Made by a program: the position numbers and the translations under genes
From: a virus
Reading direction: 5' to 3' (one strand)
DNA length: 43,302 nucleotides
IMG/VR virus record: IMGVR_UViG_3300034072_000812
Span: 1 to 43,302 of that record
The notes under the pieces: model-generated
Told to the model about the DNA's origin: nothing
Database searches by the model: none
What the model saw: only the letters and a program-made list of their open reading frames with translations
In this document: positions 10,270-42,801 of the stretch, in pieces
Numbering within the stretch: position 1 is the stretch's first letter
Layout of the letters: every line of letters starts with the position of its first letter

Positions 10270-10295
10270 GCCCCGCATGTCGGGGCTTTTCTTTT
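10270..10295 (+). terminator. Rho-independent terminator upstream of xis-int
   Basis: GCCCCG and CGGGGC form a 6-bp stem with a CATGT loop, followed by TTTTCTTTTT. It insulates the integration genes from the upstream operon. Confidence 0.8.
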
Positions 10296-10306
10296 TGGAG
10301 GTCAGG

Positions 10307-10672
10307 ATGACAGCAGCAGAAGCAGCACTGTTCCTGCAAGTATCCAAGCGGCAGGTCTATACACTCGCCGCCCCACAAGGCCCAATCCCTTGCGTTCGCA
10401 TTGGGAAGCGGGTCATTTTTGACGAACCCGATTTACTGGAGTTCAAACTATCATGCCGATCTACAAGGACAAAGAAAGAGGCTGCTACGTTTTCGAGTTC
10501 TCGCGCCGTATCGGTGGGGAGCGCGTCCGTGCTACAAAAGCACTTCCAAAAACGTGGACTCGCGCCCAAGCTGACGCCTACGACCGGCAAGAATCCGCAC
10601 GGCTTTATGCGACAGGTTCAGGCATCGAGAAGCCAGAGCGCAGCATCGAGGAAGCTGTCGCTTGTTACCTGA
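10307..10672 (+). CDS. Excisionase-like helix-turn-helix protein
   Basis: 121 aa as an open frame. Residues 1-50 (AAEAALFLQVSKRQVYTLAA, PCVRIGKRVIFDEPDLLEF) are a typical winged-helix/HTH_17 excisionase or AlpA-type domain. The remaining 70 residues overlap the start of the integrase gene in another frame and are Ser/Lys-rich, so they may be dispensable or biologically meaningless. TGGAGGTCAGG lies directly before the ATG. Its place ahead of int suggests it is the recombination directionality factor. Confidence 0.75.
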   Translation: MTAAEAALFLQVSKRQVYTLAAPQGPIPCVRIGKRVIFDEPDLLEFKLSCRSTRTKKEAATFSSSRAVSVGSASVLQKHFQKRGLAPKLTPTTGKNPHGFMRQVQASRSQSAASRKLSLVT

Positions 10673-11412
10673 TCGAGCGGGCGCCAAAACTCAAGCAGGG
10701 GGCCAACGTCGAGCGCGAGCTGGCCCTGATCTATTGGGTCTACCAGGGGCGGATGCTTTCTGAGCTGCCAGCCGTGTGCAAGGAATACGCCCTGAAGGCC
10801 GTGAACGACAAGGGCCAGCCATTGGCACCGGCCTCAATCCGCAACCGCATACGCTACCTCACGGCGGCATGCCGGTACGCTTGGAAGCACCATGATTACT
10901 GCGAGCACGACCCCGGCGAAAAGGTGGTGGTGCCCGAGGTGAAGAACGAGCGCCATCACTATGTTGACCGGGCCACCATGCTCCAACTTTGCAGAGCCAC
11001 ACACAACAAGATGGCGCGCATGGCGGTGCGGATGGCTTTTTACTCGGGGATGCGCCTGTCGGAGATTCTGCGGGCCGTGCCGTCTGGTGGCGTGTGGGTG
11101 CTGCTTGACACCAAGAACGGAGAGCCGCGCAACGTGCCAATTCACCCGAAGGTGGCGGTATGCGCAAGGCACTTCAAAGCCTGCCCGAAAATCACGATCC
11201 AGTTCAATTTCCGCAAGGCCAGGGACGCGTGCAATCTTCCACATCTGCACTTCCACGACCTGCGGCACAGCACGGCCAGCGCAATGCTGGGGGCTGGGGT
11301 TGACCTGTACACCATCGGCAAGGTTTTGGGCCACAAGGACAGCCGCAGCACGCAGCGTTACAGCCATTTGAGCTTGGACGCGGTCACCAGCGCAATCCGC
11401 AAGATTGGCTAG
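10453..11412 (+). CDS. int: Tyrosine integrase
   Basis: 319 aa tyrosine recombinase. The N-terminal SAM-like domain covers about residues 50-150. The catalytic domain shows the first Arg in YSGMRLSEIL near 199, the Lys in TKNGEPR near 220, HDLRHSTAS near 270, LGHKD near 294, and the nucleophile Tyr in TQRYSHLS near 303. It should integrate the phage at the tRNA-Ser-bearing attP that begins at its stop codon. It starts inside the excisionase gene, so the two are made from one transcript. Confidence 0.95.
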   Translation: MPIYKDKERGCYVFEFSRRIGGERVRATKALPKTWTRAQADAYDRQESARLYATGSGIEKPERSIEEAVACYLIERAPKLKQGANVERELALIYWVYQGRMLSELPAVCKEYALKAVNDKGQPLAPASIRNRIRYLTAACRYAWKHHDYCEHDPGEKVVVPEVKNERHHYVDRATMLQLCRATHNKMARMAVRMAFYSGMRLSEILRAVPSGGVWVLLDTKNGEPRNVPIHPKVAVCARHFKACPKITIQFNFRKARDACNLPHLHFHDLRHSTASAMLGAGVDLYTIGKVLGHKDSRSTQRYSHLSLDAVTSAIRKIG

Positions 11413-11694: not shown

Positions 11695-12117
11695 TCACTT
11701 GCTGACGCCCTTCACCTTTTCGAAGGTACGCGCCCCGGCAATGCCAAGCATGCCCGTCAGGATGACCCACAGCGCATCCGTGTCCAGCATGGGGGGGTGT
11801 GCCAGGGTTCCCGGAATCCAGCCCTTAGCCTGCATCAATGCCCAGCACCACACCATGAACGGGTAGGCTAGGAACTGGTACGCCATCGCGGCGGCGCCGA
11901 TCCACCCGCAGGCTGGACGCCACCCGGCGACGAAAATGGATGTGTGCGCGGCCTCGGCCTTGTTAACTTCCATCTGCGTCGTGAGCAAGCTGGCGTCTAT
12001 CTTGGCAAGCTCGATCTGAGCGTCCAATCGCTCTTTATCGGTGGTCACCAAGTCGTCAATCACATTGCCAATGGTGCCGATGATGCCGCCCACGGCGGAG
12101 ACTGCGAGGGGGTTCAT
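11695..12117 (-). CDS. Holin, three-transmembrane GTA/phage type
   Basis: 140 aa. A Gly-rich N-terminal part (AVGGIIGTIGNVIDDL), a charged amphipathic helix (TDKERLDAQIELAKIDASLL), then hydrophobic helices near residues 72-95 (GWIGAAAMAYQFLAYPFMVWC) and 112-128 (ALWVILTGMLGIAGA), ending in a basic tail. This fits the 3TM holin family common in proteobacterial phages. It would form the membrane lesion that triggers lysis. It overlaps the endolysin gene by four bases and is the last gene of the late arm. Confidence 0.8.
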   Translation of the reverse strand: MNPLAVSAVGGIIGTIGNVIDDLVTTDKERLDAQIELAKIDASLLTTQMEVNKAEAAHTSIFVAGWRPACGWIGAAAMAYQFLAYPFMVWCWALMQAKGWIPGTLAHPPMLDTDALWVILTGMLGIAGARTFEKVKGVSK

Positions 12118-12620
12118 GCGGCCTCCTTCAATGTGCGGCGAAGCCAGCCCAGCAAAAAGCCACGCTGCGAGCTGTCGCGTGTGATGATCTGTTCGTATCG
12201 GGCCAGCTTCGCTAGGGCGTAGCGGGCCAGAAACAGATCGGCGTCGTAGTTGTTCAATGCAGCCAAGGTCTTCGGGCCTATCTTCCCGTCAGGGGTAGTG
12301 CCAACGACAATTTGCGCCAGCTTCGCTGCAGTGCCCGTGCCTGCGTTGACAGCGAAGTCAAACAGTGTCCGTGCCACATCCTGGCTCTGCACTTCCTCAA
12401 GCCGCAACGGTGTCCAAAAATTGGAGCGGTAGAACCCGCGCACCATTTCAGCCGGTGGAGTGTCTCCAGCATCGATGTAGGCCCACCCTGCCCACTTCGG
12501 CCAAGCGTTGCGCGCAATGCCAGCGTATGTCTGCCCGCCACGGTCGTTCTTGACGGTGTGCAGGACGTAGCCGCCTTCGTTGACGATCATGCGCTCGAAG
12601 GCTGGAAGGAAGTCGCTCAT
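12114..12620 (-). CDS. Endolysin, glycoside hydrolase family 108
   Basis: 168 aa. Starts FLPAFERMIVNEGGYVLH, where the Glu of NEGGY is the catalytic acid of GH108 (ZliS-like) muramidases. It continues GGQTYAGIAR near residue 28 and the peptidoglycan-binding-like domain TPDGKIGPKTLAALN near 110-125. It cleaves the glycan backbone of the host wall at lysis. The start at 12620 is chosen because the family begins there. No signal peptide, so it needs the holin. Confidence 0.88.
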   Translation of the reverse strand: MSDFLPAFERMIVNEGGYVLHTVKNDRGGQTYAGIARNAWPKWAGWAYIDAGDTPPAEMVRGFYRSNFWTPLRLEEVQSQDVARTLFDFAVNAGTGTAAKLAQIVVGTTPDGKIGPKTLAALNNYDADLFLARYALAKLARYEQIITRDSSQRGFLLGWLRRTLKEAA

Positions 12621-12937
12621 TTCGGTGTCACCCCGCTTTTCATGGCTGTCCAAATACCGACAATTGCCCCAACAAAGGTTGTGATATAGCCCAATGGCTT
12701 CGCAGCTTTGCCGATCCACTCCAGCACCTTCATGGCCCCTTTGAAGCTGCGAAAAGCCTCCAGCAGCTCGGCGGTGTCGGCCTTGATGGCGTTGGTCGCG
12801 TCGGTGTTTTCTTTGAGCAAGTTCCGAAACTCGGCTTGCTCCAGCTTCACCGCTGTGATTTCGTCAGTCAGGGAGTCCATGCGCTTGTCGCCGTGGTCGA
12901 GGGCGCGGGCAACGTCTTGCTCGAATTCCTCATTCAT
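12617..12937 (-). CDS. Coiled-coil plus C-terminal membrane helix protein (lysis cassette)
   Basis: 106 aa. Residues 1-70 are a charged coiled coil (DKRMDSLTDEITAVKLEQAE). The end, about 78-100, is a hydrophobic helix (PLGYITTFVGAIVGIWTAM). The build resembles XhlA-type haemolysin/holin accessory proteins and some spanin-like proteins; I cannot tell which. GGGGGAG precedes the ATG. It overlaps the upstream and downstream lysis genes by four bases each, which supports a lysis role. Confidence 0.7.
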   Translation of the reverse strand: MNEEFEQDVARALDHGDKRMDSLTDEITAVKLEQAEFRNLLKENTDATNAIKADTAELLEAFRSFKGAMKVLEWIGKAAKPLGYITTFVGAIVGIWTAMKSGVTPK

Positions 12938-14979: not shown

Positions 14980-15914
14980 TAGATGTTCCCTTTGATCGTC
15001 AAATTGAGCGAAGCCACGCTGAAACTTTCGGGGCTGATAGAGCCAGTCACAAAGCCCAGCGTGCTGAGGTAGCCGTAGCGCGGCAGGTTGGATGCTTCAA
15101 ACGGCACCGCTACGTCTGCAACCTCTCCAAGTACGGCATCTGCGTACATCGCCTGGCCACCAGGCAGGCGAATGGAGCAGGTCACATCGCGCGAGCCGGT
15201 GCGCTTGACTTGGGTGTAGGAGCCGTCTTTGGCGTACTCTCGGTACGTGTAGGTCTTGCGCTCAGAGCGTGCGCCGTAGTCGGCCCCGCCCCAATCGCCA
15301 TCACCGATCAAGTTGCGCCAGTCGCCAATCTTGATGTCACCAATCGCCACCGCGCCAGATGCTGCAGCAGTGACGGTGATGGTGACCTCGGCACCTGGCA
15401 GGACTGGCAAATCGTCCAGCCCTACCTGCTCCACCTTGGGCAGCACGGTAAAAAGCAGTTCATAGAACCCCGCCGCTTGCGCGAAGAGGTCGAACGTTTG
15501 CTGTTTGGCGATGGTGCCCCCCGGCGTTTCGCGCACGGTGATGGTGCAGCTGTCGCCCTCGGCTCCGTACACACGAATCGCGTTGAAGAAGCCGGGATTC
15601 ACCACCACCGTGAGCGAGCCGGTGCCTCGGGCCTTGGTGGATGTGTAGTCGTCAAACATCGCCATGCGGGCGGTGGCGCGTGAGCGCAGCCAATACACGG
15701 GGTCAGCCTCTGGCAATGCAGTGCGGGCGCTGTGGGCCTGCCTGCACAGCCATATAGCCCCGTTGCTGGTGCGCTCGTCGCCTGCGGCGTAGGTGCCGCC
15801 AGACACCCAGGCCACCTCACCGCTTGCGGTGTCAGGCTCGGGGATGGTGGTGCCCGCGCCGATCATGCTGGGCACGATCTGCACAGGCACCATCACTTTC
15901 ACGGATGCGGTCAT
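14979..15914 (-). CDS. Tail tip / baseplate-type structural protein
   Basis: 311 aa. Residues 28-75 (EVAWVSGGTYAAGDERT ... ADPVYWLRS) form a CBM5/12-like module. The rest is beta-rich, with TVVVNPGFFNAIRVYGAEGD near 97 and KTYTYREYAKDGSYTQVKRT near 222. It overlaps the tape measure by four bases, the place where distal tail proteins lie in siphophages. It is probably a distal tail or baseplate component; assignment to a named family is not secure. Confidence 0.6.
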   Translation of the reverse strand: MTASVKVMVPVQIVPSMIGAGTTIPEPDTASGEVAWVSGGTYAAGDERTSNGAIWLCRQAHSARTALPEADPVYWLRSRATARMAMFDDYTSTKARGTGSLTVVVNPGFFNAIRVYGAEGDSCTITVRETPGGTIAKQQTFDLFAQAAGFYELLFTVLPKVEQVGLDDLPVLPGAEVTITVTAAASGAVAIGDIKIGDWRNLIGDGDWGGADYGARSERKTYTYREYAKDGSYTQVKRTGSRDVTCSIRLPGGQAMYADAVLGEVADVAVPFEASNLPRYGYLSTLGFVTGSISPESFSVASLNLTIKGNI

Positions 15915-18900
15915 ACCGTGGCTTCCTTAATCGCTTGGGCCAGTGCGGCAACGTTCATGATTTCGGCTCGGTAGGCGTTGCCGCCGTCCGTGCCGTTGTC
16001 CTGTTGCTGCGCCATCTGGTCATTGGTTTTTTCGATTTCCGCAAGCCGTGCCTCCACCTTCACAAGTTGGGCAGTGACAGTGCGCAGTTCTGCAATCAGG
16101 GCCTCGCTGTCGCCGCCAGTCGAGCCGCCGTTTGCCCAAGGGTTGAACGCCTTGGGCACGATTGCTTCGCCTTCGTGGATGCGCGCGGTCATGTCGCGGG
16201 GTACGTAGTTCGTACCCACAGCAAACGCGGGCAGGCGGATGTTGTAGGTTTGCTCCCACAGCTTGCGCAGCTCTGGTATGCGCTTTGCCACGTCTAGCAA
16301 GGACTCACCCGCGCGGATGTAGCCAATGGACCCATCAGCCCCGGTGAACTGGGCCATGTTGTTGTCCAGCTTCGTGAACGAGGCACCGCCAAACGATGGG
16401 TCGCTGTACTTGCTGCCAACAGCGGCCCAGCCAGTAGTCGCATTGAAGTAGGCGTCGAAATCGGCCTGCATCTTGGCGAAGGTGGCGGCAATGCCGGTGG
16501 CACCGTCACGCCCAACGTCTGAATAGCTGTTGCGCAGCAGGTCGTACAGGTCGCCAGCAAACCCGGTGAGGTTGCTGTTGAGGGCCTGTAGCTCTGACAC
16601 CGCAGCCCCAGCCGATGACGCGATGGACTCTTGCAGGCTGGCCTGGGCTTCGCTGCTTTCCAGAACGCTTGCGAGCTTGGCCTCGGTGAGCACGCGGTCA
16701 CGCAGGTATTCGGCCTGCGTTATCGTGCCGTCAGCGCTGGCCGACAAGAACGCATCGGCAGCACCTGCCAGTTTTTCAGCAGCGGACGCATCGCCACCGA
16801 GCGCCAGGCGTGTGTACTCGTCGAGCACGCTCTTGGTCTCTGCGTAGCGCGAAGCTGGATCGCTCAGGGCTGTGGTGCTGGCGCGCAGCTTTTCGAGCGA
16901 ACTCTGGATGCTGGACGCAGCAGTGCGCCAGGACGCAGCAGCCGCCTTTGCAGCATCGGCAGCGGCAGATGCAGCCGATTGCGCGGCAGCGTCTGCACCG
17001 CCCGAGATAGACCCGAACATGGCATCAAGCGCCGCCTGTGCGTCATCGGTGTAGCCCTGCTCTGCCGCTGCACGGTCAATGTCTGCAAAGTAGGCATTGG
17101 CCGCAGCGTTAGATGCCGCCATGGCGTCGATCAGCCCATAAATCTGCTGCTGCATAGCAACCGCAGCGGGGCCGAATTGCGCCAGTGCGGCCAACTCGCG
17201 TTCACGCTCCAGCGCCACGGCGGCGAGGTTGTTGCCTTGTGCCCGCAACAGGTCGATCTGCAGGCGGCCCATGGTGTCGGCCTGCTGCGAGGCGAGCTGC
17301 TGGAAGTAATCAGCCGTGTTGGCAAAGGTGCCAGACAGGGCCAGCAGTGCCGCTGCCAGCTCGGCATCACCCGCAGCAAAGGCCGCCTCTACCGCTGCGC
17401 GGAATTGATCCTTGGCATCGTCGCCCAACCGTGGGTCAATGCTCAAGTCCAGCCCCGTCAGGGCTTCGTTGAGCTGCGCCACCGCCGAATCGATGCGCTC
17501 TTGCTCGCTGTAGAAGCCTTGGTAGAAGGCCCCCGCACCAGCCGTGAGCGCCTCGATAGAACCGGCAGCGTCCAGCAGGCCGGACTGCATTGCGTCGGTC
17601 AGGGACGAGAACATTTCCATGCTGCGGCCCAGCGCGACGAATGCAGACTGCACCACGCCAATCTGATTCAGCACGCCAGTGAGCTGCTCCATGCTGGCCG
17701 AATCGCCAATGCTTTCGAGCATGTCATCCGCCCAGCTGGGCAAGTCCATATCGAGCAGCACCTGGCGGGTGTCTTGCGCCACGGCAGCAAGGTACTGGCG
17801 GTAGCCTTCTTCACCGTCACCAAACTCACGCGGTGCCCAGCGGCTTTGTCGGTTGTTTTCCCAGTTCAGCAGCTCTTGCCCATCGCGGCTGATGCGCAGG
17901 CCGCCCCATGCGCCGTCTTCGCTGGTGTCGTCGGCGAACGCTGTGGCGATTTCATACCCAGCTGTTTGGCCGAATGCCACGGCAATGCCATCCAGCGCCG
18001 TGCCAAGGCTTTGCGCCAAGGTGCTGACGGCTGTGATGGTTTGCGCGCCTGCTTCCACCCGGCCAAAGCCGATGTTGTAGCCAGTTGCGTCTTGGCCCGA
18101 CATGAGGCCGCGCGCGCCGCTGTATTGCGCCGCCCCGCCCGTGTGGTAGGTGCCGGAGTCGTCCAGCCCGCCCAGGATAGACACCAGGGCCGCGATGCCA
18201 CCAATCCAGGGGAGCGCGGCACCCACCCCGCTGAGCAATCCGCCGCCCGCAGCCCCCGCAGCATTGGCAGCAGCAGCGGCAGAAGCGGCATCGATGCCAA
18301 TGGTGGCGGCCAACCCGGTATTGGCGGCGACGGTGTTCAAGCCCAGCCAGCCGCCCACGGTGCCCAGCATGCCCTGAGTGCCTTGCAATCCGGTGATGAG
18401 GTTGGCCCCGCTGCCCAGCATTCCGAGCGCGCTTGCACCGCCCCCAGCCGCTGCGGCGGCGTTGCCGTACAGCATGCCGTTGATAGCACCCGCCACAGGC
18501 GACATAACGGCGCTGATGACGGGGCGCAGCACCAGCGTGCTGAACATGTTTTTCAGGGTCGAGCGCAGGTTCTCGGCAAAGCCCTTGCCACTTTCAAAGC
18601 CACGGAGAAGCGCATCGGTCAGGCTGCGGTTAATGTCATCTGCTGCACGCTGCCACTCGTCGGCAGCCTTCTTTGCGGCTTCCCGATTGGCTTTCACCAA
18701 ATCAAGCTCCATCTCTTTCGCAGCACCGGCTTTCTTTGCAGCAGCCAATTCACGGTATGCCTCGGCCTGCTGCTTGAGCGCGTTGTAGGTCTGCTCGTCC
18801 AGGTTGCGGTCCATCTGCTTGATGGCCTGCAACTCCAGGTCGGTCGCCAGCATCTCCAGCTTGGCCGCGTCCAGTTCGGCAATGGCCTCCTTGGAAAGCC

Positions 18901-20719
18901 CCAGGCGTGCAGTCGCTTCAAGCTGCGCGGCAGTATCCGCTTTGATCTTGTCGAGTCCGGTGGACAGGGATGTGAGGTATTTTTCGCGTGACGCGGCGGC
19001 GTCGAGGTTGGCTTTGGCGAGGGTTTTGGCGGCATCTGCCGCTTGCTCACTGGCGATTCGGTTCTCAAACAGTGCGGCCACTTGCGCCCGCTGTTGGTTG
19101 GTGAACCCAGCCCAAACAGCACTACCAGCCAGCGCAATGAATTCCTCTTGCGCTTTGTTGTATCCGTGCTGTGCTGCTTCTGCCGCTGCTGCGGCTTTTG
19201 GCAAGTCAACGCCAAGGCGCTGCATCAGCTTGTCATACTCAGACAGAGCCTCTTTCGTCGCCCGCGCACCCGCCCTAGTGGCTACAGTTGGCGCAGACGA
19301 TGTGCCCAGATCAATGCGGCGCGGGTCAGTAGCTGCGGATGCGTTGCGCGTTGCGTAGCGCGCGTACTCTTCTTGGGCCTTTCTTGCTCCCAAAATGCGC
19401 TTTTCTGTCAGGTCGATTTGCTTGCGTGCCTCTTCAGCATCGGCAACCATCTGCTCTCTGATCGCGGCTACACCGGCAAAATTGAACTGCGCGGCCTGCG
19501 CGACCTGGGCGGCCAGCCCCCCAATCTCTACGCCAACCTGAGTGATCACATATTTGAGGTTCGCCCCGAGAACCGCGACAGTCTCAAAGACTGTTGCTAC
19601 ACCCTCTTGGAACGTAGTGAGCGCACCAGTCGCCCGCCCGCTATCGTCATAGGCCGCCGTCATCGCTTTGATGATGGTCGTAGCGTCCTCGATTGCGCCG
19701 TTTGCCAGCTTGATGCTGTCGTAAATCAGCGTGCCAGCATTGCGCTCATTGATCGTGCGGAACAGTTCGTCCCATGTGTCGCCCAGCTCAGAGATAGCGC
19801 CATCCAGCGTCTTGGCGCGTTCGGCCATAGCTCCGCCAAACTGCACATTGCCAATGTCTTCGAGATACTTGGTAATCTCAGACGCGCTGTTTTTGATGGT
19901 GGTCGTGACCCCCTGGAAAGTGAGCGAAACGTTGTCGCCCTCTTTCTTGGCCTTAATGCCAAACTCTTTCAGGCGCTCAAACTCGCCAGTGCTGGCATCC
20001 GCTACAGCCTCGATCATCTGATTGAGGTCTTTGCCCATCGCAGATGCGGTGTTGCCGAAGCTGGTAAGCGCGGCGCGGGTCGGGTCAAGCCCCAGCGCCT
20101 TCATCTTCACAAAGCCTTGCGTGGCCTGCGCCAAACCAAATGGCGTTTCCTTGGCAAAGGTTTTCAGCCAAGACAGTTCACGCTCTGCGGCTGCGCTGCT
20201 GCCGGTCACGGTTTTCAGGCTGGAGTTCAGCACGTCGAACTCGCGCTGCACTTCCACCAGCTTCCCAACTACGCCAAACGCAGCGGCGCCAGAAAACGCC
20301 ACAGCCATAGCGCGGCCCGCTGCCTGCGCAGCGCTGCCCAAACCAGACAGGCCGCTTTCAGCCTTCTTTGTCGCTTCCTCTGCCTTGCGCAGTTCATCAA
20401 GGAACGGCTGAAATTTGGCTTTATCCAGCCCCTTGAACTCAAGCTGCGCCTCGAACTTTTGAGACGCGGTTTTCCCAAGCATCTCCAGTTCACGGGTGGA
20501 CTTCTGAATCGCGCTGCGCATCCGAGACTCTGCCCGCGTGAACTTCTCTGCGCCCGCCTCTGCGCCTGTGCCGATGTTGTCCACCGCTGCCCCGGCTTTG
20601 GTGGCCTCGGCCTGTACCTTGCTGGCCATCTGCCCAGCTTTGGCCCCCACCCGATCAAATGCGCCTTCCGCCTTCTCGGACGTGACGACTACTTCGCCGG
20701 TAATGCTTAGGTCTGCCAT
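15911..20719 (-). CDS. Tail length tape measure protein
   Basis: 1602 aa. The N-terminal tape-measure domain covers about residues 150-360 (FDVLNSSLKTVTGSSAAAE, GFVKMKALGLDPTRAALTSFG, ELGDTWDELFRTI). It is preceded by an Ala/Lys-rich helical start and followed by long Ala-rich coiled coils. A Gly/Ala-rich hydrophobic stretch around residues 770-880 may insert in the membrane during DNA entry. The C-terminus holds RIHEGEAIVPKAFNPW, which is common in these proteins. Family rule: its helical length sets tail length, so this phage has a long tail of siphovirus type. Long open frames on the opposite strand are shadows of this GC-rich gene. Confidence 0.93.
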   Translation of the reverse strand: MADLSITGEVVVTSEKAEGAFDRVGAKAGQMASKVQAEATKAGAAVDNIGTGAEAGAEKFTRAESRMRSAIQKSTRELEMLGKTASQKFEAQLEFKGLDKAKFQPFLDELRKAEEATKKAESGLSGLGSAAQAAGRAMAVAFSGAAAFGVVGKLVEVQREFDVLNSSLKTVTGSSAAAERELSWLKTFAKETPFGLAQATQGFVKMKALGLDPTRAALTSFGNTASAMGKDLNQMIEAVADASTGEFERLKEFGIKAKKEGDNVSLTFQGVTTTIKNSASEITKYLEDIGNVQFGGAMAERAKTLDGAISELGDTWDELFRTINERNAGTLIYDSIKLANGAIEDATTIIKAMTAAYDDSGRATGALTTFQEGVATVFETVAVLGANLKYVITQVGVEIGGLAAQVAQAAQFNFAGVAAIREQMVADAEEARKQIDLTEKRILGARKAQEEYARYATRNASAATDPRRIDLGTSSAPTVATRAGARATKEALSEYDKLMQRLGVDLPKAAAAAEAAQHGYNKAQEEFIALAGSAVWAGFTNQQRAQVAALFENRIASEQAADAAKTLAKANLDAAASREKYLTSLSTGLDKIKADTAAQLEATARLGLSKEAIAELDAAKLEMLATDLELQAIKQMDRNLDEQTYNALKQQAEAYRELAAAKKAGAAKEMELDLVKANREAAKKAADEWQRAADDINRSLTDALLRGFESGKGFAENLRSTLKNMFSTLVLRPVISAVMSPVAGAINGMLYGNAAAAAGGGASALGMLGSGANLITGLQGTQGMLGTVGGWLGLNTVAANTGLAATIGIDAASAAAAANAAGAAGGGLLSGVGAALPWIGGIAALVSILGGLDDSGTYHTGGAAQYSGARGLMSGQDATGYNIGFGRVEAGAQTITAVSTLAQSLGTALDGIAVAFGQTAGYEIATAFADDTSEDGAWGGLRISRDGQELLNWENNRQSRWAPREFGDGEEGYRQYLAAVAQDTRQVLLDMDLPSWADDMLESIGDSASMEQLTGVLNQIGVVQSAFVALGRSMEMFSSLTDAMQSGLLDAAGSIEALTAGAGAFYQGFYSEQERIDSAVAQLNEALTGLDLSIDPRLGDDAKDQFRAAVEAAFAAGDAELAAALLALSGTFANTADYFQQLASQQADTMGRLQIDLLRAQGNNLAAVALERERELAALAQFGPAAVAMQQQIYGLIDAMAASNAAANAYFADIDRAAAEQGYTDDAQAALDAMFGSISGGADAAAQSAASAAADAAKAAAASWRTAASSIQSSLEKLRASTTALSDPASRYAETKSVLDEYTRLALGGDASAAEKLAGAADAFLSASADGTITQAEYLRDRVLTEAKLASVLESSEAQASLQESIASSAGAAVSELQALNSNLTGFAGDLYDLLRNSYSDVGRDGATGIAATFAKMQADFDAYFNATTGWAAVGSKYSDPSFGGASFTKLDNNMAQFTGADGSIGYIRAGESLLDVAKRIPELRKLWEQTYNIRLPAFAVGTNYVPRDMTARIHEGEAIVPKAFNPWANGGSTGGDSEALIAELRTVTAQLVKVEARLAEIEKTNDQMAQQQDNGTDGGNAYRAEIMNVAALAQAIKEATV

Positions 20720-20732
20720 GGGGCCTCACAAA

Positions 20733-20764
20733 CAAAAAAGGCCCACGGGGTAAGCCGTGAGCCT
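20733..20764 (-). terminator. Hairpin terminator before the tape measure gene
   Basis: Minus strand: AGGCTCACGG pairs with CCGTGGGCCT (one mismatch) and is followed by TTTTTTG. It is the second of two hairpins in tandem between the small membrane-protein gene and the tape measure gene. Confidence 0.65.
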
Positions 20765-20772
20765 CAGAAATG

Positions 20773-20795
20773 AAAAAACCCGCCGAAGCGGGTTT
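20773..20795 (-). terminator. Rho-independent terminator downstream of the membrane-protein gene
   Basis: Minus strand: AAACCCGC-TTCG-GCGGGTTT followed by TTT. The UUCG loop makes it very stable. It closes the inserted immunity-like cassette. Confidence 0.8.
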
Positions 20796-20815
20796 GTGTG
20801 TGTTGCGCTGTGGCG

Positions 20816-21076
20816 CTACGGGTTGGCGATCTTGCGCGCGGCCTCAATCTCCCTGTCGTCGTGCGCCTTGAGCGCCATCGAGGACAGAGGGAATTGAGTC
20901 GCCAGAATCACGCCCGGCATGCTTCTGAGAGCGTCTTCGTTGACGAAGAACTCCGACAAAGCAAAGGTGACTCGCGGCACAAGATGGGTGCCGCGCGAAC
21001 CTGTGAAAACATGGAAGTTGCCGATGAACAGCACCCCACCCAGAAGGATCGGAAGTGCGATCCAGAACTTGTTCAT
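20816..21076 (-). CDS. Small membrane-anchored protein (moron-like)
   Basis: 86 aa. An N-terminal hydrophobic segment (FWIALPILLGGVLFIGNF, residues 4-21) acts as signal anchor, and about 60 residues follow, ending AHDDREIEAARKIANP. AGGAGGG is seven bases before the ATG. It sits between the antirepressor gene and two tandem terminators, so it seems to travel with the immunity cassette. A lysogenic-conversion or exclusion role is possible but unproven. Confidence 0.65.
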   Translation of the reverse strand: MNKFWIALPILLGGVLFIGNFHVFTGSRGTHLVPRVTFALSEFFVNEDALRSMPGVILATQFPLSSMALKAHDDREIEAARKIANP

Positions 21077-21155
21077 GAGCCCTCCTATAAGAAGTGCTCA
21101 TGTTACTAAATGGTGCAGCCTTCGTGCAGCTTGCGCTTGGCGGTTAATGGCTGCT

Positions 21156-22139
21156 TCATACCGTAGTCAACCTTCCGCTGTCCTGCTTCATGCGAAACGC
21201 AGCCCGCGCCGCTAAGCGCTGAGTGCAGGCACTTGCAAGATTCGCCAGCTCTTCATCCGACGACATCATTCCGTTTGGTTCAAGGATGCGGGTCGGCAGT
21301 TCTTTCATAGAAACCACCATGGCATCGCTTTGGATCGGCTTGGCCCACGGGATAGTTGGCTTGCCTTCGCGGTCGTGGTTCAGGCAGAACATCCAGCGAT
21401 CCCACTTCGACACATCCTTGCCATCAATCACCGCATCAAACACGGTTCGCATTGCTGATGCGGCAACCTCTGTTGCAAGGCTGAAGGCACTTTTCAGTAA
21501 CTCAGAATCTTGCGGCTTGGCGGGCTCTGCATCAAGCACCACGCCTTCATATGCACCACGGGGCAGCTTTCCAATCAGGTACTTGCGCGCATCCAAGTGT
21601 CTTGTCGCAGGAAGTTCAAGATAGCTATTCACGCGGAACTTCTTGTGCAGGCGTGCCCACGTTTCCCCAAACCCTTGCACACCAGCCTTCACAATCGCGT
21701 CAACAATCTCTTTCAAGTCCTGCGCTTGCGCTGGACTGATGCGGTCGTAGTCAATAGCGGGGTTATGTGGCCGCGTCGTGCGCGCCAACAACTCCTTCTC
21801 CATCTTGTTAAACGCAGCAAGGTAGGCCAATTTCCATTGCATCGCTTCTTTGCCGGTGAACCCCATCGCCAGCAAAGTGAAGCCGTCACGGGTGATGCGG
21901 TAGGACGGGTCTTTTCGCATTGCACCGTTTGGCCCCGCCACCTCCACGAACGTCAACGCAAAATTGCGTTCACGATCCTCAGAAGGAATTTCCATCTTTC
22001 TGATGGCGCGCATCACATCTGCGTGACGCTTACCAAAGTGCGCCGCGACTTGCTGGCTTGTCGTTGTGACCGACCCGTCGATGACTTGAAGATCAGGCGT
22101 GATTGCGCTACTGACTTGAACTGCTTTAGAATCGCTCAT
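21156..22139 (-). CDS. Rha-family regulatory protein / antirepressor
   Basis: 327 aa. Residues 25-120 are a Rha domain (VAAHFGKRHADVMRAIRKME, NFALTFVEV, YRITRDGFTLLAMGFTGKEA, MQWKLAYLAAFNKME). Residues 140-200 are an antirepressor C-terminal type domain (RISPAQAQDLKEIVDAI, RLHKKFRVNSYLELPATRH). This two-part build is typical of phage antirepressors that inactivate prophage repressors. The start at 22139 follows AAGGAAAC. It lies behind an Arc-like gene and under a predicted antisense RNA, as ant does in P22. A promoter between the palindromic operators upstream of arc would drive both. Confidence 0.85.
   Translation of the reverse strand: MSDSKAVQVSSAITPDLQVIDGSVTTTSQQVAAHFGKRHADVMRAIRKMEIPSEDRERNFALTFVEVAGPNGAMRKDPSYRITRDGFTLLAMGFTGKEAMQWKLAYLAAFNKMEKELLARTTRPHNPAIDYDRISPAQAQDLKEIVDAIVKAGVQGFGETWARLHKKFRVNSYLELPATRHLDARKYLIGKLPRGAYEGVVLDAEPAKPQDSELLKSAFSLATEVAASAMRTVFDAVIDGKDVSKWDRWMFCLNHDREGKPTIPWAKPIQSDAMVVSMKELPTRILEPNGMMSSDEELANLASACTQRLAARAAFRMKQDSGRLTTV
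22103..22132 (+). promoter_or_regulatory. Candidate promoter for a Sar-like antisense RNA
   Basis: TTGCGC (22103-22108), an 18-bp spacer, then TAGAAT (22127-22132, five of six consensus bases). The predicted start near 22139 falls on the ant start codon, reading away from ant. The -35 is weak, so this is a candidate only. Confidence 0.4.
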
Positions 22140-22216
22140 GATGTTTCCTTGATTCGCGTCTTTGGTTACTTCACTCAAAGCCTCGGTTGTTCCACCAACC
22201 GGGGCTTTTCCTTTTT
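22139..22216 (+). ncRNA. Predicted Sar-like antisense RNA against ant
   Basis: A plus-strand transcript of about 75 nt from the candidate promoter would end at the terminator at 22178-22216. It would cover the ant start codon, its AAGGAAAC ribosome site and the whole arc-ant gap, and stop at the arc stop codon. Phage P22 has a 68-69-nt antisense RNA, Sar, in the same place that blocks ant translation. Size, position and terminator agree; expression is not shown. Confidence 0.5.
22178..22216 (+). terminator. Plus-strand terminator between arc-like and ant genes
   Basis: AAGCCTCGGTTG and CAACCGGGGCTT pair over 12 bp with one G-U and a TTCCAC loop, followed by TTTTCCTTTTTC. On the minus strand the G-U becomes an A-C mismatch and no T run follows, so the hairpin is built for plus-strand RNA although every gene around it is on the minus strand. 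Confidence 0.75.
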
Positions 22217-22404
22217 CAGGCGGCATTTGCATGTTGCGGCCCTTGGTGTTGTCGCTCGGCCACGCTTTTGCGCAGCGCTGCAACGATCTGGCCGTTGAAA
22301 GTGCGGTCATTCACTTTTGCCGCCTCATGCACGACGGCATGTAGCTCTCGCGGCAGACGGAGCGCTGTCCGCACCCACTCATCTTGCTTGCCTTCGACTT
22401 TCAT
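22216..22404 (-). CDS. Arc-like ribbon-helix-helix repressor
   Basis: 62 aa. VRTALRLPRELHAVVHEAAKVNDRTFNGQIVAALR fits a ribbon-helix-helix fold: strand RTALRL, helix PRELHAVVHEAA, helix TFNGQIVAALRKSV. The start at 22404 follows AAAGGAAAG. It is followed by ant and faces the Mnt-like gene across palindromic operators. It is similar to its divergent neighbour (RTALR(L/V)P, NDRTFN/NNRTFN), so the two are duplicates. It probably limits antirepressor expression. Confidence 0.85.
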   Translation of the reverse strand: MKVEGKQDEWVRTALRLPRELHAVVHEAAKVNDRTFNGQIVAALRKSVAERQHQGPQHANAA

Positions 22405-22417
22405 ATCTTTCCTTTCG

Positions 22418-22481
22418 GCTTCACTTTGAAGCTGAGAGTGATTATGCACGACTTCAAATTGAAGTCAACTCCAGATTGAAG
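22418..22481. promoter_or_regulatory. Operators for Arc/Mnt-like repressors
   Basis: Two inverted repeats with the core TTCA-N3-TGAA: GCTTCACTTTGAAGC (22418-22432) and GACTTCAAATTGAAGTC (22450-22466), centres 33 bp apart. A half match (GATTGAAGCC) is near 22474-22483. They fill the gap between the two divergent ribbon-helix-helix genes. One lies inside the ant-direction promoter. Confidence 0.7.
22441..22468 (-). promoter_or_regulatory. Promoter for the arc-like and ant genes (P-ant type)
   Basis: Minus strand: TTGACT (22468-22463), a 16-bp spacer, CATAAT (22446-22441). The palindrome GACTTCAATTTGAAGTC overlaps the -35 and fills most of the spacer, so repressor binding would directly block RNA polymerase. 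Confidence 0.7.
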
Positions 22482-22501
22482 CCATCCAATAAACTAGCCC
22501 C

Positions 22502-22762
22502 ATGGCCACACAAGACGACTACATCCGCACCGCCTTGCGCGTCCCCCCAGACCTACACGCGCAAATCCACGAATCGGCCAAGGAGAACAACCGAACGTTC
22601 AACGCTGAGATCGTGGCTCGTCTACGCGGCAGCTTCGAAACCAGGGATACAGACATAGCCCAAGACACCGTTGGGGCCATGCTCAAGAGCCTCAAAATGA
22701 CCATCACCCATGCCGAGACACTTGCGAAGCGTCTCGAACTCATCGAGAAGAAGCGCTCTTAG
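22502..22762 (+). CDS. Mnt-like ribbon-helix-helix repressor
   Basis: 86 aa on the plus strand, opposite to all structural genes. Residues 8-45 (IRTALRVPPDLHAQIHESAKENNRTFNAEIVARLR) are a ribbon-helix-helix domain. The C-terminal 30 residues form a coiled coil (MLKSLKMTITHAETLAKRLEL), as in Mnt, which forms tetramers that way. It is expected to be made in the lysogen and to repress the arc-ant promoter. No ribosome site is visible before the ATG, so it may be translated from a leaderless message. It ends four bases inside the tail-chaperone extension, tail to tail. Confidence 0.85.
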   Translation: MATQDDYIRTALRVPPDLHAQIHESAKENNRTFNAEIVARLRGSFETRDTDIAQDTVGAMLKSLKMTITHAETLAKRLELIEKKRS

Positions 22763-23070
22763 CCCTCTGCCCGGTTATCGCTCATCTGCTTGAGGGCCGC
22801 GCCCTCCATCACTTGGATGTCTGAAAACATCTCGTCCCACTCTTGCGGGTCTTTGGCCGCCCGGTCGAGCAGTGGGTACACGGCGTTGTAGTCCAGCCCC
22901 GTTGGGCCGCCCATTCCGACGCGCCATTGGGTGAAAACACTGTCGAACACCCGCCACACAGTCCAGTTCTCAGGCCAGACTTCGACCTCATCGAGGCCGT
23001 AGTCAGCAGCCGAGAAAAGCGCGCCCTTCTTTTCTTGGAAGTAGCGCGCCTGTGTGGCTTGGGTCAGTTT
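22759..23070 (-). CDS. Tail assembly chaperone extension (T-like, DUF1799-type), reached by -1 frameshift
   Basis: About 102 codons open in the -1 frame after the upstream chaperone stop. No usable ATG occurs in the upstream part; only an internal GTG at 22959 could start it. The product contains VWPENWTVWRVFDSVFTQWRVGMGGPTGLDYNAVYPLL, matching DUF1799-type phage tail proteins. A slippery GGGAAAC at the end of the upstream gene would fuse it to that protein, giving a product of about 230 aa, as lambda does for gpG-gpGT. Confidence 0.8.
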   Translation of the reverse strand, partial: KLTQATQARYFQEKKGALFSAADYGLDEVEVWPENWTVWRVFDSVFTQWRVGMGGPTGLDYNAVYPLLDRAAKDPQEWDEMFSDIQVMEGAALKQMSDNRAEG

Positions 23071-23450
23071 CCCAAACGGCCTTCCAGGCAGGCGCCACGG
23101 TATGCGTCGCCAAATGCCGCGATGGAGGCCGGGATTTCATCCTGGAGTTGGAGCAGCGTTTCAACGGTCAGGTCGTAGCTAAAGTCCCACGAGTCGATTG
23201 CGTCGATCAGCTTCTTCACTGTCTTTTCGCCCCCCTTGGCGAACAGCGCCTCGAAGTCGATTTTCTCGCCTTCAGCAGGCTTCTCGGTGTCTGCGCTGTG
23301 ATACAGGTCGTTCAAAAACGCGCCGTATTCCTTGCGGGTGCGGTACTTGAACGTGGTGTTGATCGCGCCTTCTTCGCCGTCTGGCATGGTGAACTTGACG
23401 GGGAAAGGCTTGAACGTCTTGGGCTTGTTGCCGAGCTTGATGGTTGCCAT
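23064..23450 (-). CDS. Tail assembly chaperone (G-like)
   Basis: 128 aa. Starts MATIKLGNKPKTFKPFPVKF, with a mixed alpha/beta body (TTFKYRTRKEYGAFLNDL near residue 32) and a helical end (TVETLLQLQDEIPASIAAF). Its position, after the tail tube and before the tape measure, is that of the tail assembly chaperones that coat the tape measure during tail building. Its last codons GGA AAC TGA sit in a slippery site, so a share of ribosomes should continue into the T-like extension. Confidence 0.85.
   Translation of the reverse strand: MATIKLGNKPKTFKPFPVKFTMPDGEEGAINTTFKYRTRKEYGAFLNDLYHSADTEKPAEGEKIDFEALFAKGGEKTVKKLIDAIDSWDFSYDLTVETLLQLQDEIPASIAAFGDAYRGACLEGRLGN
23067..23076 (-). promoter_or_regulatory. 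Programmed -1 frameshift site
   Basis: The minus strand reads TTTGGGAAAC, two overlapping slippery heptamers (TTTGGGA and GGGAAAC, frame 0 as G GGA AAC) directly before the TGA at 23066-23064. Lambda uses GGGAAAG at the same place. Confidence 0.8.
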
Positions 23451-23556
23451 GATTTACTTTCTTCGCAGGGTTTGCAGAAATGCCCTTGCCCAGCCCGCGC
23501 GCCCTGCGAAGAGCGACACGAGCCGGGTAGGTGCGTGGGTGGCCTATGGCCGGAGA

Positions 23557-24210
23557 TCAGGAGGCGTAGCGCGTGGTGCGGTTGTTGCCCGAGACAGCGG
23601 CCGTCACGGTGTTGATCTGGCCGTCATTCATCTGCACGGACTCGTTCAGCGCCACGGTTCCGGGCACCAGCTGGATCTGGCCCGAGCGGGTCACGATGCG
23701 CAGGATGGTGTTTGTCTGCACGTCGGTCAGCGACTTCAGAGCGGCATAACCAGCAGAGCCGATGGCGTCGGCGTCAAGGGTCAGCGTGTAGTCAGTGCCG
23801 TTGAAACCGTCGTTCATCTTGTAGCGAACGTCGCTTTCCAGGTACTTGTAATCCACCGTGATGGGGTCTCCGCCAGAGCTGGAGACGGCAGTAATCATGG
23901 TGATCTGCTGCCAGGTAGATACCTTGCGCACCGAGCCAGCGCCAGCGCCCACAGGGAAGAAGGTGGTAGACGTGGTGTCCATGCCTTCCAGCGTGATCGA
24001 GGTGTTCAGCACCACGTTCTTGATGCGGGCAGCGCGCAGGTTCAGACGACCCCAGCCGCTGGAGACTTCCACGAAATCGCCGTTGGCAAGGCCAGTGGTG
24101 CTAGCCATCGTCAGAACGCATTCGGTGGCGTTGCTGGCTGCGCTGAAAGAGAGTGCGGTTGCAAAAACGGAGGCGACGAAAATATTCGTGCCGGTTGGTA
24201 CTTGTGCCAT
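23557..24210 (-). CDS. Major tail tube protein
   Basis: 217 aa, beta-rich, starting MAQVPTGTNIFVASVFA, with NGDFVEVSSGWGRLNLRAARIKN early (two strings), WQQITMITAVSSSGGDP near residue 100, and DYTLTLDADAIGSAGYAAL near 140. This matches phage tail tube proteins of lambda gpV/phi-type. It is placed after the tail completion genes and before the tail chaperone, as usual. AAAGG precedes the start. Two hairpins upstream may tune its expression. Confidence 0.88.
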   Translation of the reverse strand: MAQVPTGTNIFVASVFATALSFSAASNATECVLTMASTTGLANGDFVEVSSGWGRLNLRAARIKNVVLNTSITLEGMDTTSTTFFPVGAGAGSVRKVSTWQQITMITAVSSSGGDPITVDYKYLESDVRYKMNDGFNGTDYTLTLDADAIGSAGYAALKSLTDVQTNTILRIVTRSGQIQLVPGTVALNESVQMNDGQINTVTAAVSGNNRTTRYAS

Positions 24211-36337: not shown

Positions 36338-36503
36338 TCATCTCTTCCCCTGTATTCCCTGTATCTGCTCTTGAGCGGACAGACCTAGCCCTTCCTGGGT
36401 AGGCCTTCACATGTCTCGACTTCCTGCTCCGTCGCGTTACATGACCCGCCAGACGTTCGGGGCAAGGGCTCTGGCTTCGCCACCCTTTGCTGTATCTCAG
36501 CCC

Positions 36504-36629
36504 CTAATCCCACAGTTCAGCTCTCCCCTGGTGCCTGTCGTTAAACCATGGCCGACACATCCAGGCGGCACGTTTAGAGCGGCGTGCGCGCTTGATTCCT
36601 GTGCTGCTGCGGTGCTCGGAGAACCGCAT
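36504..36629 (-). CDS. Small basic protein (41 aa), in the primase-downstream gap
   Basis: 41 codons: MRFSEHRSSTGIKRARRSKR, then AAWMCRPWFNDRHQGRAELWD minus its first residues. GAGAGGGAA lies directly before the ATG. The rest of the stretch between 36338 and 36663 shows nothing else I can support. Ribosome site and composition (Arg/Lys-rich, Trp) make it plausible; no homologue is recognised. Confidence 0.4.
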   Translation of the reverse strand: MRFSEHRSSTGIKRARRSKRAAWMCRPWFNDRHQGRAELWD

Positions 36630-42132: not shown

Positions 42133-42801
42133 ATGAAAACCGTCGAAGAAATACGCCGATTGAAGCTGGCCGCGCTAATCGCCGAGGCCGGGAATCAGTC
42201 CATGCTGTCGGACAAGATTGGCAAGGCTCCGGCGCAAATAAGCCAATGGCTGAACGCGTCAATTAATTCCAAGACTGGCAAGCCGCGAGTCATGAGCAAC
42301 GCTATTGCCCGTGAGTTGGAACAAAAAATGGGGAAGCCGCACGGCTGGATGGATCAGCAGGACACATCAATTGCAAACACAGAACCAGGCCCAGACCTGC
42401 GCGGCAAGGTGCCACTGATTTCCTGGGTACAGGCCGGGGAGTGGTGCGCGGCCTCAGACCCGCACTTGCCAGGCCAGGCTGACAGATGGATGGATTGCCC
42501 CGTAAGCCACAGCGGCAGCACGTTTGCTCTGCGCGTGCGCGGCGACTCTATGACGGCGCCCAGCGGCAACAGCAGGACATACCCCGAGGGCTGCTACATC
42601 TTTGTTGACCCGGAGCGCAAAACCCCTGTAAACGGTGATCGGGTGGTGGCCTGCCTGACGGGCACCGACGAAGTGACCTTCAAAATCTACAAAAACGAGG
42701 ACGGACGCCAGTGGCTACAGCCGCTGAACCCGTCGCATGAGCCCATCCGGGAAAAGTTTCACATCTTGGGCACGGTGCTTGGTAAGTGGGAGGATGGGTG
42801 A
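42133..42801 (+). CDS. LexA-like phage repressor (CI, S24 peptidase)
   Basis: 222 aa. N-terminal HTH, residues 8-65 (LAALIAEAGNQSMLSDKIGK, APAQISQWLN). The C-terminal S24 domain has the self-cleavage Ala-Gly bond in ISWVQAGEW near residue 100, the catalytic Ser in RVRGDSMTAP near 140, and the Lys in DEVTFKIYKN near 182. DNA damage should therefore inactivate it and induce the phage. No ribosome site is seen before the ATG. The next gene starts on its TGA. Confidence 0.93.
   Translation: MKTVEEIRRLKLAALIAEAGNQSMLSDKIGKAPAQISQWLNASINSKTGKPRVMSNAIARELEQKMGKPHGWMDQQDTSIANTEPGPDLRGKVPLISWVQAGEWCAASDPHLPGQADRWMDCPVSHSGSTFALRVRGDSMTAPSGNSRTYPEGCYIFVDPERKTPVNGDRVVACLTGTDEVTFKIYKNEDGRQWLQPLNPSHEPIREKFHILGTVLGKWEDG

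Follow-up and report, generated by a model that had tools for sequence, protein, structure and literature searches.

Cassette genes between a tail chaperone and a tape measure gene

The window analysed here is a complete IMG/VR virus record (IMGVR_UViG_3300034072_000812; 43,302 bases), in which the tail genes lie on the minus strand and the order from the DUF1799 tail chaperone to the tape measure protein (TMP) is interrupted by a cassette spanning about 20.75–22.76 kb. The cassette resembles immI of phage P22, one of the founding gene-control systems, and consists of a divergent pair of repressor genes, an antirepressor gene and a small open reading frame (ORF). An initial annotation made from the letters alone had placed it at 22103-22762; this marked a real feature, of which it covered the upstream part only. 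The cassette comprises:

22502..22762, plus strand: Mnt-like ribbon-helix-helix (RHH) repressor gene (86 aa)
22216..22404, minus strand: Arc-like RHH gene, paralogue of the Mnt-like gene (62 aa)
21156..22139, minus strand: antirepressor gene (327 aa), with an N-terminal Rha domain and an Ant/ORF6C-type C-terminal half
20816..21076, minus strand: small membrane-protein-like ORF (86 aa)
20776..20795, minus strand: cassette terminator
20738..20765, minus strand: second hairpin terminator, beside the TMP start and probably outside the cassette itself (both from a terminator search)

The gene content and order are directly visible. The annotated succession of a Mnt-like gene, a divergent Arc-like gene and a Rha antirepressor is confirmed for all three by Pfam and PHROG matches and by the coordinates, the antirepressor gene lying downstream of arc in the same direction. 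The Mnt-like protein matches Pfam Arc (E 1.7e-6, above the curated cut-off) and phrog_795 (E 1.4e-16), the family in which P22 Mnt scores 2.6e-35; it has the beta-strand IRTALRVP and a C-terminal extension of ~38 aa, and its gene ends in a stop codon that overlaps the stop of the convergent DUF1799 gene. The Arc-like protein matches Pfam Arc at E 4.8e-4, 0.1 bit below the cut-off, and phrog_795 at E 7.8e-13. The pair therefore belongs to the Arc/Mnt family, and an RHH profile (A2) run against solved structures finds Mnt (1mnt, E 2.5e-7) and Arc (1arq, E 2.2e-6). The two proteins are duplicates of one another, as first noticed by eye (60% identity over 45 residues, E 1e-19). The small ORF, annotated as a membrane protein, has by eye a hydrophobic N-terminus and no family match in Pfam or PHROG searches; an exclusion role for it would be a guess. 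The cassette also has the terminators of its own that had been described, on the minus strand at 20795-20776 and on the plus strand at 22177-22208. Its G+C content is 0.549, compared with 0.616 in the TMP gene and 0.599 in the upstream tail genes.

A toxin-antitoxin or plasmid-partition unit, with the antirepressor as an accidental neighbour, could be read from the label of the best-matching PHROG family, 'partition protein ATPase', and from weak matches to HicB-type RHH proteins. The label is a misnomer, since P22 Mnt and Arc match that same family, and neither a toxin nor a ParA partner gene was found in 20.75-22.76 kb among the reading frames or by Pfam and PHROG searches. We rejected this reading, which we regard as very improbable. 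P22 Mnt itself carries the label in NC_002371 and in PHROG (phrog_795), a misleading name that is spreading to such proteins.

The antirepressor belongs to the Rha family by its N-terminal domain (Phage_pRha, E 2.1e-26); P22_AR_N, the domain of the P22 Ant family proper, was not found at its N-terminus, and a PDB search with the protein returned no match. With its C-terminal half it falls into two PHROG families, phrog_2127 (E 2.8e-7) and phrog_2812 (E 3.3e-6), and P22 Ant matches both as well (E 7.1e-32 and 1.3e-52, respectively). A bridge is provided by a P22_AR_N + ORF6C protein at another locus, L009, whose N-terminal half matches P22 Ant (E 1e-23) and whose C-terminal half matches that of the window protein (E 7e-14). 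The idea that Rha replaces the N-terminus of P22 Ant gains support from this bridge and from the common PHROG matches and, because these link the C-terminal half to P22 Ant, the window protein is best read as a predicted Ant-type antirepressor with an exchanged N-terminal domain. Relatives carry, behind a nearly identical leader, Bro-N (L108), P22_AR_N (L109) or AntA (L189); the effector domains seen are Rha, P22_AR_N, Bro-N, AntA, ORF6N and KilA-N. L108 belongs to a natural lysogen, Polaromonas sp. OV174.

Operators, the arc-rha promoter and antisense signals

The control elements of the cassette are the following:

22441..22468, minus strand: arc-rha promoter, TTGACT-16-CATAAT (one found, 0.7 expected)
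22452..22464: operator O1, CTTCAAATTGAAG, overlapping the -35 edge and the spacer of the arc-rha promoter
22419..22431: operator O2, CTTCACTTTGAAG, between the -10 box and arc, its centre 16 bp beyond the -10
22469..22481: degenerate operator O3, CTCCAGATTGAAG, with one mismatch, on the mnt side, 17 bp on
22177..22208, plus strand: hairpin with a T-tract between the arc stop and the rha start, putative terminator of a sar-like RNA
22127..22132, plus strand: candidate antisense -10 box, TAGAAT, within the first codons of rha

Firstly, we examined the palindromes that had been proposed as operators between the divergent genes. Exact CTTCANNNTGAAG is found in the 43,302 bases only at 22419-22431 and 22452-22464, that is, twice against 0.02 expected, and 0 of 100 shuffles reached two. 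The operator region, drawn at first as 22418-22466, does hold these two exact copies; the third, imperfect one lies beyond it, at 22469-22481. Relatives retain the overlap between the -35 box of the arc-rha promoter and the operator, and in the closest set three sites are conserved at spacings of 33 and 17 bp, L111 and L188-L191 having three exact operators, the window and L108 two each, and L109 one, accompanied by near-copies. The spacings persist in this set although the middle three bases differ, as does the Arc beta-strand, so the sites follow Mnt. The mnt-arc intergenic region thus holds, as judged by sequence and conservation, predicted repressor operators over the ant promoter. A separate Arc operator was looked for by eye in the alignment of relatives, and none stands out.

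Secondly, we compared the operator with the type of Mnt. Scans with a Mnt alignment yielded 80 genome loci and 30 viral loci which, together with loci found earlier, give 90 with a divergent RHH pair according to a local profile. After removal of six duplicates (L192, L193, L196, L197, L205 and L212), CTTCAnnnTGAAG was present in 11 of the 17 loci with a TALR-type Mnt and in 0 of the 67 others (Fisher p 6.7e-10); because similarity searches return related loci, the Fisher p and the shuffle counts overstate independence. A protein-blind scan of viral contigs for two operator motifs 19-23 bases apart returned 19 stretches, 6 on known contigs and 13 new, and a TALR RHH protein lies beside the motif in 8 of the 13. 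The conservation of the operators and their coupling to the type of Mnt are direct observations, and they provide a testable specificity rule, namely that an RHH strand [RK]TALR reads CTTCAnnnTGAAG. RTALR is the strand of both Arc and Mnt in the window, and the two may therefore compete for the same sites. TALR is likewise present in both divergent RHH proteins of L225 (4483-5137), where mnt has perhaps given rise to arc by a second duplication.

The single mismatch in the third operator and the common beta-strand of Arc and Mnt, one of which may be redundant, would also suit a decaying, non-functional cassette that survives by chance in the tail operon. Every reading frame of the cassette is intact, however, and the promoter, the two exact operators, the hairpin and the leader are conserved, so that we consider a remnant unlikely.

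Thirdly, we analysed the leader between arc and the antirepressor gene. The T-tract of the post-arc hairpin is on the strand opposite to rha. Across 8 sequences, 7 of the 12 stem pairs have changed on both sides while 92.7% of cells are paired; the covariation score was reached in 0 of 500 shuffles, and slid-partner controls were 25-42% paired. Of the 90 loci, 26 have an antisense-oriented terminator no further than 160 nt behind the arc stop (7-16 in ten shuffles) and 3 have a sense-oriented one (0-6 in shuffles); the search disallowed loops of more than 12 bases and so missed hairpins such as that of L044. Directly behind the start codon, ATNCTA, which on the antisense strand reads as the -10-like TAGNAT, is present in 14 of the 53 first genes (the loci with a callable first gene after arc) and in none at five downstream offsets. 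Both the hairpin covariation and this recurrent antisense -10 are observed directly. RATTCTA occurs in nine leaders (window, L108, L109, L110, L188-L191 and L141) despite the different domain families of the proteins encoded downstream, but these leaders were chosen by eye for likeness, the set lacked L111 of the same operator clade, and the script sought RATTCTA; the 9/9 is therefore no test, which is provided by the 14/53 versus 0. In P22 (NC_002371), sar RNA is annotated at 15021-15090 and its promoter start at 15097, six bases past the A of the ant ATG; the positions of the antisense -10 in the window and of the P22 sar promoter agree to within one base. From these sequence features, we infer a sar-like antisense RNA of roughly 70-90 nt, running from the rha start to the post-arc hairpin.

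Seven of 84 distinct loci (L113, L194, L167, L112, L136, L142 and L123) carry TTGGCGGA after arc, against 0.2 expected. Such loops are typically seen in the targets of antisense RNAs, and TTGGCGGA is a possible recognition loop for an antisense RNA.

The leader also bears on a rival explanation, in which the cassette is a plain moron: its antirepressor would act mainly against other prophages and leave the phage's own CI unaffected, there would be no antisense RNA, and the post-arc hairpin would be an attenuator or a stabiliser of the mRNA. The free exchange of effector domains behind constant control parts is expected if the targets differ from the phage's own repressor, and PMC3121763 has as its topic trans-acting antirepressors that coordinate prophage induction. 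Yet the T-tract of the hairpin is on the antisense strand, and an attenuator leaves unexplained the ATNCTA behind the start codon. We hold a plain moron to be possible, though rather doubtful.

Insertion at the chaperone-TMP junction

The genes flanking the cassette are:

23557-24210, minus strand: tail tube protein gene (family search)
23064-23450, minus strand: TAC_4 chaperone gene (E 9.3e-20)
22759..22959, frame open to 23136, minus strand: DUF1799 tail chaperone gene (E 5.3e-18; stop at 22759)
15911..20719, minus strand: TMP gene (1602 aa; family search)

The cassette thus lies, as annotated, between the tail chaperone (DUF1799 stop at 22759) and the tape measure (TMP start at 20719). A close relative, L003, whose chaperone is 89% identical to that of the window, is devoid of the cassette, with ~67 bp from the DUF1799 stop to the TMP ATG. 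Since L003 joins the two genes directly, the cassette is an insert; close relatives do not always carry these genes, as they would if these were fixed tail genes. Similarity between the window and L003 ends shortly ahead of the DUF1799 stop, near 22,772, and restarts near 20,744, in agreement with the borders predicted near 22.76 and 20.73 kb. The restart falls in a terminator-like hairpin present before TMP in both records, and the hairpin at 20738-20765 is therefore probably outside the insert. The insertion is directly observed, and absence from some relatives is what the immI/ant moron inserts of late operons display. The DUF1799 frame itself is without an ATG, GTG or TTG start in 22959-23136, and yet likeness to relatives reaches upstream, possibly owing to a rare start codon or a frameshift product.

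We determined how often this junction receives inserts. In distinct DUF1799-anchored loci, a sample that is non-random (a Rha scan had supplied L009, chaperone searches L004 and L025, and a DUF1799 scan L044 and L099), inserts of more than 400 bp are present at the DUF1799-TMP junction in 8/62 loci, compared with 2/67 between tube and chaperone, 0/69 between chaperone and DUF1799 and 1/36 behind TMP. Four DUF1799-TMP inserts exceed 1 kb: L009, L044 and L099 encode RHH or HTH repressors together with an antirepressor, and L093 carries other genes. A search for tape-measure-adjacent arc/mnt pairs in other phages, as had been suggested, was positive. TMP is the first large gene behind the module in 14 of the 78 distinct pair loci derived from the Mnt scans (L044/L196, L108, L116, L117, L133, L136, L142, L167, L172, L194, L206, L207, L213 and L215), a count from which L135 and L168 were removed by hand and L124 was omitted as doubtful; in the enterobacterial L135 and L168 the module lies beside a protein read by eye as tail tip protein J. 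Both phages that a Mnt protein search of phage records revealed, Pkon1 and TCUAN1, carry the module in front of TMP, and a nucleotide search of such records with window positions 20600-23500 returned nothing useful. TMP was rejected as the sole site, since modules of the same clade also occur next to terminase (L110), to a giant late protein (in L141 and L191) and, in L109 and L188, to other genes. Because many other loci end at contig edges or lie in early or other late regions, the chaperone-TMP junction is recurrent and not exclusive.

The position before TMP raises the question of a local role, in which the promoters, terminators and repressors of the cassette would set the late transcription that reaches TMP. 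A like idea is reported, in passages of PMC2629481, for the ant moron of P22 and its tailspike; the window has two terminators before TMP, and 16 of 63 distinct viral junctions have a sense-oriented intrinsic terminator no more than 120 nt from the DUF1799 stop, compared with 20 of 309 control windows. Against it, related modules of this clade are placed next to terminase, to giant late proteins or to further genes, and most DUF1799-TMP junctions are insert-free. A local role appears improbable to us, if somewhat less so than a remnant.

Other features were seen around these modules. Terminators after DUF1799, for example in L028, L058 and L083, are odd for the middle of a late operon. The giant late protein beside the module in L141 and L191 is phrog_11358, with a DarB-like match in L141. 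A protein that looks exported (Tat or Sec, by eye) is encoded among arc, the antirepressor gene and TMP in L044 (12600), L167 (9334), L117 (4981), L207 (9341), L213 (8199) and L172 (7860); the only one scanned, that of the L099 cassette (12060-12692), had no Pfam match. The module insert of L099 also contains, by eye, a RelE/Phd-like pair (10278-10809), another being listed in L026 (9616-10221), and Pkon1 has an annotated RelE/HipB-type pair among its head-tail genes.

The proposed switch and its known counterparts

We conclude, with a probability of about 0.77, that the cassette is a P22 immI-type secondary immunity switch, or ant moron, which has entered the late operon at the junction of the tail chaperone and TMP genes. 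Secondary immunity presupposes a separate primary repressor, and one is encoded in the same phage:

42133..42801, plus strand: S24/LexA-type phage repressor gene (phrog_4, E 1.6e-35; UmuD-like phrog_811, E 1.9e-7)

This repressor is a candidate target of the Rha antirepressor. The gene content is that of a temperate phage, as it includes, besides this S24-type repressor, an integrase and an excisionase-like gene at 10.3-11.4 kb. Elsewhere in the window, close to the primase gene, positions 36444-36567 (minus strand) match the Rfam Betaproteobacteria-1 sRNA (RF02932, 96.2 bits).

In a lysogen, the Mnt-like protein would bind the three CTTCAnnnTGAAG operators and keep the arc-rha promoter off. 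Upon entry into a Mnt-free cell, the promoter would fire and the Arc-like protein and Rha would be made; Arc, a Mnt paralogue with the same DNA-reading strand, would then shut the promoter again, and the putative antisense RNA, running from the rha start codon to the post-arc hairpin, would limit rha translation. Rha would disarm an S24-type phage repressor, encoded either by the same phage or by another one that is resident or incoming, and this may shift the balance between lysis and lysogeny. DNA binding, the antisense RNA, the feedback by Arc and the target of Rha are the predicted parts of this scheme.

Several results weigh against the switch as proposed. The exact motif is missing in 6 of the 17 TALR loci, and 5 of the 13 new operator-pair hits (L219, L220, L221, L232 and L234) have no RHH protein found nearby. 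The covariation of the hairpin is blind to the strand in use, and the -35 of the window antisense promoter is poor (TTGCGC, 3/6, spacer 18). No direct sequence link was found between the window Arc and P22 Arc, direct BLASTP of the Rha protein against P22 Ant fails (E 0.14), and the empty site is known from one close relative only, L003.

A broader proposal, which we advance tentatively, is that the immI switch forms a mobile control chassis that is widespread among long-tailed phages of proteobacteria, with mnt, three operators, arc and a sar-type RNA retained as a unit and the antirepressor domain exchanged (Rha, P22_AR_N, Bro-N, AntA). Its preferred dock would be the chaperone-TMP junction, where its terminators would gate TMP transcription, and in the window line arc would be a second copy of mnt, the switch working by competition of paralogues on shared operators. 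As far as literature searches found, the ant moron is in print only for P22-like phages; our results suggest that this architecture, of which the position of the antisense promoter is a part, is widely shared among proteobacterial siphophages, extends to at least one myophage of these bacteria and reappears before TMP. The relatives show a switch that is reused as a unit, with one output protein exchanged for another behind retained control elements, and such natural domain swaps should help in asking which phage repressor each antirepressor domain attacks.

Comparable modules are present in described phages. Paracoccus phage vB_PkoS_Pkon1 and Acinetobacter phage TCUAN1 have a divergent Arc-like pair and an antirepressor-type gene between the tail genes and TMP; they differ from the window in encoding KilA-N (Pkon1) or ORF6N (TCUAN1) and in their operator sequences, and their records do not name immI. 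Passages on Paraburkholderia terrae prophage 437 (orf63-66; PMC5567305) and Psychrobacter phage Y8A (ORF43-48, shortly before TMP; PMC10434257) describe an antirepressor or KilA-N gene accompanied by one or more Arc-like genes; for Y8A, unlike the window, a single Arc-like gene is listed near TMP. These passages contain no comparison with immI. The insert of P22 was named 'ant moron' in PMC2629481, whose relevant passages describe it in P22-like phages (epsilon34 and others) as a variable late-operon insert, often immI with accessory genes, missing in some relatives, and pose the question of why the site tolerates an insert. The window cassette is likewise a variable late-operon insert; it differs in that the inserts treated there are those of P22-like phages, at a single site upstream of the tailspike gene.

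The closest counterpart is P22 immI itself (mnt, arc, sar, ant). According to passages of PMC11016777, Mnt of P22 represses arc and ant, sar antisense RNA binds ant mRNA, Arc inhibits mnt and moderates ant expression, Ant binds C2, and deletion of immI lowers lysogeny. The gene order proposed for the window, and its promoter/operator geometry, agree with the annotation of NC_002371: both have a divergent RHH pair and, downstream of arc, the antirepressor gene, an operator within the ant promoter (Oarc in Pant in P22) and another directly behind it (Omnt), a late-operon placement, a membrane-protein gene nearby (sieA in P22) and, in the window as putative elements, an antisense terminator between arc and ant and an antisense -10 around +7 to +13 of ant. 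The differences are that the window has Rha where P22 has P22_AR_N; a single type of operator, present three times and tracking Mnt, where P22 has separate Oarc and Omnt; an Arc that is a close Mnt paralogue; and a membrane ORF behind the antirepressor. In addition, the window cassette lies at the chaperone-TMP junction of a long-tailed phage, whereas immI lies between gene 16 and the tailspike gene.

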